This document shows, in pieces, positions 30,701 to 34,232 of a DNA stretch of 64,000 nt. A program made the position numbers and the translations under genes. The DNA is from Rhodopseudomonas palustris (GTDB lineage Bacteria; Pseudomonadota; Alphaproteobacteria; Rhizobiales; Xanthobacteraceae): assembly GCF_013415845.1 (NCBI RefSeq), contig NZ_CP058907.1, positions 62,001-126,000 of the forward strand, in the 5' to 3' direction. The notes under the pieces are model-generated. The model did no database searches. It was given only the letters and a program-made list of their open reading frames with translations, and had not been told where the DNA came from. The first letter of the stretch is position 1. Each line of letters starts with the position of its first letter.

Positions 30701-31159
30701 TCAGCGGCCGGTCGAGCCGAAACCGCCGGCGCCACGGCCGCTTTCCGGCAGCGCCTCGACCGCCACGAACTGAGCGCGGCTGACCGGGGCGATCACCATT
30801 TGAGCGATGCGTTCGCCGCGGCGGATCGCGAACGGTTCGGTACCGTGGTTGATCAGCAGCACGCCGATCTCGCCGCGATAATCTGCATCGATCGTGCCCG
30901 GCGCGTTCAGCACGGTGACACCGTGCTTGGCGGCGAGGCCCGATCGCGGCCGCACCTGCGCCTCGTAGTTCTCCGGAAGCGCGATCGTGAGCCCGGTCGG
31001 CACCAGCACGTAGCGGCCGGGCTGAAGCGTCAGCGGCGCATCCTGCGGGACGGCGGCGATCAGGTCGAGCCCGGCGGCGTGCGCGGTCTGATACTCCGGC
31101 AGCGGCAAGCCTTCGCCGTGCGGCAGGTGGCGAATCGAAACGGTGATCTTTTGGGTCAT
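30701..31159 (-). CDS. dut: dUTP diphosphatase
   Basis: The 152-residue trimeric dUTPase hydrolyses dUTP to dUMP and PPi, keeping uracil out of DNA. Five family motifs are present: AGLDLIAAV (I), [11 protein letters not shown] (II), [17 protein letters not shown] (III), RIAQMV (IV) and the flexible C-terminal [12 protein letters not shown] (V). The ATG overlaps the coaBC stop by four bases (ATGA), the last gene of ubiE-ubiB-coaBC-dut. Confidence 0.97.
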
Positions 31160-32601
31160 GCGTGAACTGCCATTGCTTGAGCGATCCGCGCCACCAGCGC
31201 GGTCGCGACTTCATCCTTGGTCATCAGCGGCCACGATTCGAGATCGGTGGCGGCATCGCGGCGCATCAGCAGATGCACGGTGTTGCGGTCGCCCCCCATC
31301 ACGCCAGTGGCCGGCGAGACGTCATTGGCGACGATCCAGTCGCAGCCCTTGCGGGCGAGCTTGGCGGTCGCGTTGTCGATCAGATTCTCGGTCTCGGCCG
31401 CAAAGCCGATCACCAGCGGCGGCCGGCCTTCGGTCAGCTTCGAGATCGTCGCGAGGATGTCGGGGTTTTCGGTGAGCTGCAGCGGTGGCGGTCCGGCGGC
31501 GCCCTTCTTCAGCTTCTGCATCCCTTCGGCAGCAACCCGCCAGTCCGCCACCGCGGCGGCGAAGATCGCCACATCCGCCGGCAGCGCGGATTGCACGGCG
31601 GCGAGCATCTCGCGGGCCGACTCCACGCGGATGCAATCGACCCCCGCCGGCGCGCGCAGCTCGACCGGACCGGAAATCAGCGCCACCTCGGCGCCGGCGG
31701 CGGCTGCGGCCGCCGCGATTGCGTAGCCTTGTTTGCCGGACGAGCGGTTGGCAATGTAACGCACCGGATCGATCGGCTCATGGGTGGGGCCTGCAGTGAT
31801 CAGCACGCGCTTGCCGAGCAGCGACTTCGGCGGCTGCGGCCGCCACAGCGCTTCGGCCGCGACCGCAATCTCGGTCGGCTCCGCCATCCGGCCGATGCCG
31901 GCCTCACCACGCTCGGCCATCTCGCCGGCATTGGGGCCGACCATTGCGACGCCGTCCTGCTTGAGCTGGGCGACGTTGCGCCGGGTCGCGGCGTTGTTCC
32001 ACATCAGCGGGTTCATCGCCGGCGCCAACAGGATCTGGCGATTGGTGGCGAGTAGGATCGCGGTCGCCAGATCGTCGGCATGGCCGCCGGCGATCTTGGC
32101 CATCAGGTCGGCGGTCGCGGGCGCGACGACGATCAGGTCACAGTCGCGCGCGAGGCGGATGTGGCCTGCATCGAACTCGCTCGAGGGATCGAACAGGTCG
32201 GTGTAGCAGCGCTGATGCGACAGCGCGCTCGCGGTCAGCGGCGTGACGAATTGCTGGGCCGCCTTGGTCAGCACCACACGGACGTCGGCGCCGCGCTCCT
32301 TGAGCCGGCGGATCAGGTCCATCGCCTTGTAGGCCGCAATGCCTCCGCCGACGATCAGCGTCACCCGCGCGCCGCCGGCCTGTGGCTGGGCACGCGGCCC
32401 GTCCGCTGGCTGATCGGCCGCGGGAGGTGCTGGCACGGACAAGTCAGCCGAGGCGGGCTCCGCGAAGCCGAGCCGCTTGTGGCAGGCGTCGCGTAGGATC
32501 ACCCGGACCTCATCCTCCATCGAGCGGCCGTTGGCGGCCGCGCGCTGGCGCAGTTCGGATTTGAGGACGTCGTCGAGCTTGCGGATCGTCAGATTGGCCA
32601 T
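31156..32601 (-). CDS. coaBC: CoaBC (Dfp) with an N-terminal FitA-like ribbon-helix-helix domain
   Basis: This is a 481-residue bifunctional CoA-biosynthesis enzyme. Residues 1-40 ([20 protein letters not shown], then [16 protein letters not shown]) closely resemble the RHH DNA-binding part of FitA/VapB antitoxins. An Ala/Pro linker (41-76) follows. The flavin-dependent PPC decarboxylase CoaC spans about 77-265, with [10 protein letters not shown]. The CTP-dependent PPC ligase CoaB spans about 275-481, with [11 protein letters not shown]. The frame is continuous, so the domain is truly fused or translated with the enzyme. Without it the enzyme would start near residue 77, but no good internal start is evident. 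A palindrome lies 23 bp upstream. It follows ubiB and overlaps dut. Confidence 0.93.
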
Positions 32602-32623
32602 AACGAAAAGCTAGCGGACGCAG

Positions 32624-32652
32624 GCATTGCGTTCAAGTCATGAACGCAATGC
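32624..32652. promoter_or_regulatory. Perfect 12-bp inverted repeat upstream of coaBC (candidate operator)
   Basis: Arms GCATTGCGTTCA (32624-32635) and TGAACGCAATGC (32641-32652) are exact reverse complements around a 5-base spacer. The site ends 23 bp before the coaBC ATG and starts just after the ubiB stop. No T-run follows on the minus strand, so it is not an intrinsic terminator. FitA-type RHH proteins bind short inverted repeats at their own promoters, so autoregulation by the RHH-CoaBC protein is a natural guess. An mRNA hairpin is the alternative. Confidence 0.7.
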
Positions 32653-32654
32653 AA

Positions 32655-34232
32655 TCAAATCATCCGTGATAGTGCGATCAGGACGCCAATGAAGGTGGCG
32701 GCGATCACCCACAGCGCCACGGTCCGACCACGGGTCCGGCCGCGCTCGGTCCGGCCGATCGCGGCGATGGTCTCCGGCGCCAGCACCAGACCGTCCTTGG
32801 TCATCACCTCAAGCTGATTAAGCACGGTGACGGCCCGCGACACGATGGTCGGCAGGCTGCTCAGGGTGTGACCAAGCTCGCCGGCGCCGGCCAGCGCGCC
32901 CTCGACCTTGCCGATCGGACCCAGATTGCGCTGGATCCACTCGCGCACCACCGGGTCGGCCACCTTCCAGATGTCGAGCTTGGGATCGAACGACCGCGCC
33001 ACGCCCTCGACCACCACCATGGTCTTCTGCAGCAGGATCAGCTCCGGCCGGGTCCGCATGTCGAACAGGCCGGTGACCTCGAGCAGCAGCGTCAGCAGCT
33101 TGGCCATCGAGATTTCTTCGGCGAGGCGATTGTGGATCGGCTCGCCGATGGCACGGATCGCCTGGGCGAAGTTCTCGACCGAATGATGCGGCGGCACGTA
33201 GCCGGCCTCGAAATGCACCTCGGCGACGCGGCGATAGTTGCGGGTGATGAAGCCGAGCAAAATCTCGGCGAGGAAGCGCCGCTCCTTCGGCAGCAGCCGG
33301 CCCATGATGCCGAAATCGACCGCGACCAGCTTGCCGTCGCGATCCAGGAACAGATTGCCCGGATGCATGTCGGCGTGGAAGAAACCGTCGCGCAGCGCGT
33401 GGCGCAGGAAGCTCTGGATCACCTTGCGGCCGAGCTCGACGGTGTCGACGTTGGCTTCTTTGAGACGGGCGTGATCGTTCAGCGGGATGCCGTCGATCCA
33501 CTCCATCGTCAGTACGTTGTGACTGGTGCGGTCCCAATCGACGGTGGGGACACGGAAGTCCGGATCGTCCTTGGTGTTCTCGGCCATCTCGGACGCCGCG
33601 GCCGCTTCCAGCCGCAGGTCCATCTCCATCGCGACCGAGCGCGACATCGTGTTGATGACCTCGACCAGCCGCAGCCGCCGCGCTTCGGCGGAGTACAGCT
33701 CGGCCTTCTCGGCCACGTAGAAGAAGTCGGACAGGTCGCGCCTGAACCGCGACGACACGTTCGGCCGCAGCACCTTGACGGCGACCTGCTTGCGGACGCC
33801 GTCGAGTTCGACCTCGCCGCGATGCACCTGAGCAATCGACGCGGCCGCGACCGGCGGGCTGAGGCTGACGAACAGATCGCGGACCGGCCGCTCCAGCGAA
33901 ATGGCGATCACCTGCTCGGCTTCGTCCTGCGAGAACGGCGGCAACCGGTCCTGCAGACTTTCGAGATCGCGTGCCATCGCGACGCCGACGACGTCGGGAC
34001 GGGTGGCAAGGAATTGGCCGAGCTTGAGATAGGCCGGGCCGAGCCGGGTCAGCGCCCGCGACAGCCGCGCCCCCGACTTGGCGCCGCGGCGCTCGATCAA
34101 CCGCGCCAGCCGCACCGGCACCTGACCGGCGGGCGGAATCAACGCCGGATCGACCACGCCGAACACACCCTCGCGCGCGAACACGAAGGCGGCGCGGCCG
34201 AGCCGCGCCACATGAGTGAGTGCTGCGATCAC
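32655..34232 (-). CDS. ubiB: UbiB (ABC1/ADCK-type) ubiquinone biosynthesis atypical kinase
   Basis: The 525-residue UbiB-family protein supports ubiquinone synthesis at the inner membrane. It shows the KxGQ motif ([17 protein letters not shown]), the Ala-rich loop [13 protein letters not shown], and the kinase-like [22 protein letters not shown] motifs. Hydrophobic C-terminal anchors include [20 protein letters not shown] at the very end. It is a regulatory ATPase/kinase rather than a hydroxylase in the current view of the family. It overlaps ubiE by ATGA. Confidence 0.93.

Follow-up and report, generated by a model that had tools for sequence, protein, structure and literature searches.

Why should an enzyme of coenzyme A (CoA) synthesis begin with the DNA-binding domain of an antitoxin? 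The question is raised by one gene in a 64,000-nucleotide stretch of the Rhodopseudomonas palustris genome, referred to here as the window. We consider it probable (roughly 0.8) that this gene product, RHH-CoaBC, is an autorepressing enzyme that would descend from a decayed toxin-antitoxin (TA) module, whose promoter, operator, and antitoxin domain it would have captured. The ribbon-helix-helix (RHH) domain, the selection on it, the octamer pairs, the covariation of residue 3, and the TA modules and remnants before coaBC in relatives were all computed.

An RHH domain in frame with CoaBC

A first-pass annotation had assigned the first 40 residues to a FitA-type RHH and had placed RHH, CoaC, and CoaB in a single frame. 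Both statements held. PF22513 (FitA-like_RHH) matches residues 2 to 39 of the window CoaBC with 62.5 bits in the whole protein (cutoff, 27) and with 67.7 bits when residues 1 to 68 are taken alone, and a profile of 30 CoaBC N-terminal domains recovered the solved FitA chain 2h1o (E = 1.7e-8). The ORF is intact (Table 1), and the coaBC equivalog TIGR00521 matches residues 78 to 473 with 390.2 bits (cutoff, 219.7); from sequence, both CoaC and CoaB enzyme activities are predicted.

Standard bacterial CoaBC (Dfp; the solved, full-length M. smegmatis protein 6tgv) starts directly with CoaC and has neither RHH nor linker, whereas its CoaC and CoaB parts align to window residues 78 to 447. Because residue 6 of 6tgv aligns to residue 78, we regard residues 1 to 77 as an addition. 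The flap cysteine of E. coli-type CoaC is absent from window residues 228 to 239 (31885-31920); 6tgv also has no cysteine there in the alignment.

The AlphaFold monomer of the window protein has helices at residues 11 to 24 and 28 to 42 (block means of 91, 89, and 83), a low-confidence helix rather than a strand at residues 2 to 7 (block mean, 67), and pLDDT below 50 at linker residues 43 to 72. RHH strands pair between two chains, and for residues 2 to 7 the monomer model speaks neither for nor against a strand that would form only in a dimer; the fold support for this strand comes from sequence alone.

The upstream neighbor is ubiB-like and forms the left flank of the junction at which relatives carry TA modules; the downstream one is dut-like. 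Since the start of the dut-like ORF overlaps the coaBC stop, the two are probably cotranscribed.

Table 1. Features of the RHH-CoaBC locus (window coordinates) and the other FitA-like locus of the same genome
Feature	Position	Strand	Remark
RHH-CoaBC gene	31156..32601	(-)	Intact ORF, ATG start, 481 aa
FitA-like RHH domain, residues 2-39	32485..32598	(-)	PF22513 match; dN/dS
Linker, residues 40-77	32371..32484	(-)	Low constraint; predicted disordered
CoaC + CoaB catalytic part, residues 78-473	31183..32370	(-)	TIGR00521; 6tgv alignment to 78-447
Upstream gene, presumably ubiB-like	32655..34232	(-)	ORF
Downstream ORF, presumably dut-like	30701..31159	(-)	ORF
Octamer H1 TGATTGCA	32650..32657	(-)	Contains the upstream gene's stop codon (TGA)
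Octamer H2 TGCGTTCA	32641..32648	(-)	1 nt after H1
Octamer H3 TGAACGCA	32628..32635	(-)	5 nt after H2
Degenerate fourth octamer H4 TGCCTGCG	32619-32626	(-)	After H3
Putative -35 box TTGAAC, inside H3	32631..32636	(-)	-35/-10 pattern
Putative -10 box TAGCTT	32608..32613	(-)	Inferred; 17 nt after -35, 6 nt before ATG
Other FitA-like ORF	G000:C1:3802543 (L002 1387-1629 and 966-1385)		Antitoxin-like ORF + PIN-like ORF, by eye

Distribution of the fusion

We scored a CoaBC as fused when its match began at query residue 1 to 3 (an alignment test). In the family of the window, the fusion is present in 85 of the 147 genomes with a coaBC match (149 searched; 83 full length and 2 fragments), and 61 of these loci, the window included, were examined, with the RHH found by profile. 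A second family (f24; Mesorhizobium, Phyllobacterium, and kin) has it in at least 34 of 149 genomes (151 searched with L132 as the query), 22 of them examined as loci. A sample of the order gave 6 fusions among 144 matching genomes (150 searched), all in one of these two families, and an RHH profile run over the same 150 genomes found no further fused frame. The class sample gave 1 in 104 (142 searched), the window alone.

Named genera with the fusion include Rhodopseudomonas, Bradyrhizobium, Nitrobacter, Afipia, Mesorhizobium, Phyllobacterium, Nitratireductor, and Zhengella; the named Mesorhizobium records cluster with the f24 loci on the tree. Rhizobium, Ensifer, Methylobacterium, Microvirga, Bosea, and Hyphomicrobium are unfused among the named records listed, in a search that favors fused loci because an RHH peptide was among its patterns. 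In a Fulvimarina locus whose alignment began at residue 16 (L272), an RHH was looked for and not found. Domain databases already mark PF22513 on nearly all 120 such proteins among the matches listed, P0018 excepted. The architecture is therefore annotated and, as far as we searched, not discussed: a search of open-access papers yielded no paper linking CoaBC to an RHH or an antitoxin, and "pantothen" does not occur in the main-text passages of PMC2701414.

Selection on the RHH domain

Over 13 sister pairs, chosen from the tree by the analyst, pooled dN/dS was 0.126 for the RHH, 0.596 for the linker, and 0.132 for the CoaBC catalytic part; RHH codons are as constrained as catalytic ones. In an alignment of 58 of the 61 fused proteins from the window's family (3 were dropped), residue 7 is Arg in 58/58 and residue 5 is Thr in 57/58, residue 3 is Ser in 49 and Asn in 8, and the invariant positions include R7, R20, S27, E29, and R33. 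Positions 3, 5, and 7 of RHH proteins face DNA. The patterns of conservation argue that selection maintains the domain as a predicted reader of DNA.

The same results bear on the possibility that the fusion is a gene prediction artifact and that translation in fact begins beyond residue 70. Such a misplaced start is very unlikely, because the RHH codons are under purifying selection and are conserved across two families; further, octamers and a promoter overlap precede the fused genes. We found nothing in favor of an artifact, reject it on dN/dS, and rate its probability as close to nil.

Octamer pairs upstream of fused coaBC

The inverted repeat reported earlier for this locus is present as GCATTGCGTTC-N7-GAACGCAATGC (32624-32652). 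Searched across the 5.32-Mb genome, its core, TGCGTTCA-N5-TGAACGCA, was found exactly at this locus alone, and a single further site resembles it with 2 mismatches; for want of a second exact copy, we rejected a wider regulon. A chance palindrome was rejected on the basis of unfused controls and shuffles.

TG-N4-CA octamers average 3.17 per 120 nt upstream of fused genes versus 0.24 upstream of unfused genes. Start-to-start distances of 9 and 22 occur 108 and 34 times, against 0.3 and 0.4 in shuffles. A pair of octamers separated by 1 nt (9-bp pitch) precedes 70 of 84 fused but 0 of 50 unfused genes (shuffled mean, 0.75). The window, arranged as H1-1-H2-5-H3-1-H4 with H4 degenerate, falls within the two-pair pattern of 23/84 fused loci.

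A narrower half-site pattern was found in 58/63 fused versus 3/50 unfused loci; these counts are in-sample, because the pattern was drawn up after viewing the fused upstream regions of this first set. Among 80 named loci, 6 of which repeat records of the first set, at least one half-site was present in 44/45 fused versus 1/34 unfused, with the frame-broken L229 set apart as split and the contig-edge fragments L233 and L259 taken as unfused. Over all rows, a half-site within 120 nt was absent from 9 of 101 with an RHH and present in 3 of 56 without one. In L033, L050, and L073, the octamer pair lies not near the start but ∼150 to 290 nt before it. Repeat-like sequence, of the ggccgggacaagcccggccat type in L073 and of a related type in L033, stands between the pair and the start.

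To correct for phylogeny, independent pairs were taken on starred branches of the CoaBC tree, and the counts of agreeing pairs are averages. Fused versus unfused state against two or more half-sites gave 6 independent pairs, of which 5.7 agreed and 0 were opposed (median P = 0.031); RHH presence against one or more half-sites gave 7 pairs, 5.0 of them in agreement (median P = 0.0625).

Exact TGATTGCANTGCAATCA was found at 10 sites in 10 of 24 other genomes (one of the 24, G041, is unfused), and 9 of the sites are at coaBC by their coordinates. The tenth, in G065 (L156 1501-1517), lies 26 nt past the end of one ORF, between two facing ORF ends; it precedes the end of an opposite-strand mutM-like ORF and does not stand before a gene of plausible size.

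The octamers may overlap a promoter. An octamer inside a -35 box, 16 to 18 nt from TANNNT, was found in 28/84 fused versus 0/50 unfused loci (0.6 in shuffles), and the window has a candidate of this kind, while a strict sigma-70 scan of 32500-32800 returned no promoter. With the putative -10 box at this position, the message would have no leader or almost none. By eye, several fused f24 loci (L166, L168-L173, and L176) have a further octamer-like TGCAATCA or a near-copy directly at the start codon, for example as GGAG-TGCAATCA-c-ATG; with such a layout, a bound RHH could obstruct the start region.

Residue 3 and octamer sequence vary together

We compared residue 3 with the octamer for all RHH proteins before or in coaBC, whether fused or separate. 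TGATTGCA accompanies Ser3 in 68 of 78 cases and Thr3 in 1 of 16; TGCTAGCA, TGACAGCA, or TGACTGCA (either strand) accompanies Thr3 in 16/16 and Ser3 in 12/78. Asn3, the residue of the window, occurs with TGATTGCA in 2 of 9, H1 of the window being one of the two. On the CoaBC tree, Ser3 and TGATTGCA gave 10 independent pairs, with 8.7 in agreement and 0 opposed (median P = 0.0039). The association between RHH residue 3 and the octamer persists when phylogeny is taken into account.

These results separate two roles that the first-pass annotation had offered for the domain. Control of the gene is supported computationally by the conserved DNA-facing residues, the accompanying operator-like site, and the covariation of residue 3. 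The other role, in which the RHH has lost DNA binding and serves only dimerization or assembly, draws on the facts that RHH domains dimerize and that the RHH of PutA sets the oligomeric state of that enzyme (PMC5293562). Such an aid predicts drift at positions 3, 5, and 7 and no operator, and for that reason it is not supported here: T5 and R7 are near invariant, an operator-like site is present, and it covaries with residue 3. Full-length mycobacterial CoaBC, moreover, is already a dodecamer without an RHH (PMC7794376). We therefore consider a mere assembly role to be very improbable.

TA modules and remnants before coaBC

The 161 loci that we examined were picked by hand, so their counts are not frequencies. 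In 21 of them, a separate FitA-like antitoxin ORF stands before coaBC, and in 18 of these 21 a near-full-length PIN ORF comes next. The PIN of L095 keeps only its ends, the middle being missing, and no PIN was found in L121 and L203. The PIN profile was seeded by 9 PIN loci and found 9 more full ones together with L095; Pfam confirmed PIN in 4 of 4 tested. All 8 split loci inspected have a ubiB-like ORF ahead of the antitoxin. Loci without an RHH had no PIN match (0/56), and labeled fused loci had one (1/80, in L175), where most fused loci of the window's family cover only ∼500 nt upstream. At the window locus, no PIN match was found in the 1.5 kb upstream of the ATG or in 0.7 kb beyond the gene. 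L174 and L175 each have a separate antitoxin ORF in tandem with a fused RHH-CoaBC; in L175, the antitoxin lies upstream.

Two fused linkers among 80 keep an antitoxin tail, those of L174 (E = 9e-10) and L085 (E = 1e-4), and L085 is the sister on the tree of L121, the locus with an antitoxin and no toxin. No toxin-binding tail was found in the linker of the window. Taken together, the sequences strongly support the derivation of the RHH domain from an antitoxin, and what looks like a stepwise record can be read at this place: a module, a gutted toxin, an antitoxin alone, a fusion with a tail, and a fusion with a worn linker.

Given this origin, the RHH part might still act in trans as an antitoxin against the PIN toxins of related modules. 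The scarcity of detectable toxin-binding tails argues against it, as does the only other FitA-like RHH match in the window genome, an antitoxin-like ORF that is followed, by eye, by a PIN-like ORF of its own. We judge continued antitoxin activity to be highly improbable.

Number and direction of events

On a quick tree of the catalytic parts of 157 of 161 CoaBC proteins (L079, L090, L092, and L183, all fused, were left out, their start motif not having been found), the fused label must change 18 times, and starred branches force at least 9 of these changes. A careful tree of 57 rows, from f24 and the named set, requires 7 changes, of which at least 5 are forced. A single origin of the second-family fusions was rejected by the AU test (P = 2e-5), for a group named with the data in view. 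Change counts cannot tell gain from loss.

L131, which has a full module, is nested among fused Mesorhizobium with support of 100/98; a module can therefore also displace a fusion, and a one-way origin of all fusions from modules was not upheld. Because gain and loss are indistinct and L131 sits inside this clade, we claim an antitoxin origin but no fixed history.

The mosaic distribution and its forced changes would also suit a passive leftover, a frozen accident of constructive neutral evolution in which the promoter needs its old repressor and the fusion brings no benefit. L119 fits this picture as well, since within a fused clade it has no RHH trace and one residual octamer. The occurrence in two families and a constraint at the level of the catalytic part weigh on the other side, and we regard this explanation as possible but doubtful. 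It is compatible with autorepression, from which it differs only in the reason for retention.

Relation to known systems

The closest working counterpart of RHH-CoaBC is trifunctional PutA (RHH-PRODH-P5CDH), likewise an N-terminal RHH on a bifunctional metabolic flavoenzyme, which represses its own genes (PMC5293562). RHH-CoaBC shares with it, as judged from sequence, an RHH-enzyme fusion and an operator-like site before its own gene. It differs in enzyme and pathway, and in that its RHH belongs to the FitA antitoxin family, with TA modules and remnants occupying the corresponding position in relatives.

FitAB (VapBC type) has an RHH of the same family, PF22513, and four of its heterodimers come together on 36 bp (PMC3920265). 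In contrast, the window has neither a PIN toxin nor a detectable toxin-binding tail, and the bridging oligomer could be CoaBC. Among free-standing FitA-like loci of the window's family (a set of 21, of which L002 and L012 were not parsed and the 16 free-standing ones were counted), 12/16 carry TGCTATCA, TGATAGCA, or TGATGGCA (either strand) upstream. That antitoxins can leave their module and become regulators is a general idea (PMC8987985); unlike such co-opted regulators, the RHH here is fused to the product of the gene that it would control and retains an operator of the module type.

A model of autorepression

The promoter of a TA operon is repressed by its own antitoxin. In the model that we favor, a FitA/VapB-type antitoxin and a PIN toxin would once have stood between ubiB and coaBC, and coaBC would have been read from the self-repressed promoter of the module. 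Toxin and antitoxin tail would then have been lost, leaving promoter, operator, and RHH joined in frame to CoaBC. Loss of the toxin would leave coaBC under a promoter that needs a repressor, and the joining of RHH to CoaBC would keep the two together. In the present protein, RHH dimers at the N termini of CoaBC oligomers would sit on the paired octamers at the coaBC promoter and thereby repress transcription of coaBC, and probably of dut too, so that CoaBC dosage would be held by feedback. CoaBC oligomers could link RHH dimers to one another, in the way that FitB links those of FitA (PMC3920265). Four parts of this model are inferred: that the protein binds DNA, that it represses, that a promoter lies at this site, and in what order events took place in each lineage.

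A possible extra layer is that CoA or intermediates alter binding. The first-pass annotation had suggested control that reads CoA or pantothenate status; whereas the control is supported as described above, the reading of status is a more tentative matter. As a metabolite-sensing trigger enzyme, RHH-CoaBC would change the grip of its RHH with CoA, acyl-CoA, or intermediates, in addition to autorepression, and transcription would then track CoA status. CoA and acyl-CoAs inhibit the CoaB activity of mycobacterial CoaBC (PMC7794376), and in trifunctional PutA the substrate decides between the repressor and the enzyme role (PMC5293562), while the fast-evolving linker, predicted to be disordered, argues against tight coupling. 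We think such sensing rather unlikely on balance. Equally speculative is a broader scenario in which the ubiB-coaBC junction of Hyphomicrobiales would repeatedly capture TA modules, in at least two families, and convert them into repressors attached to an enzyme, yielding a CoA enzyme that, in a single molecule, senses its pathway by binding CoA, acyl-CoA, or substrate and regulates transcription, with a residue-3 code that retunes the operator.

If autorepression is true, the gene of a CoA enzyme is regulated by the enzyme that it encodes. The locus is also an apparent record of a selfish TA module turning into a housekeeping regulator. The operator, the partner residue, and the natural unfused controls would make the mechanism directly testable.
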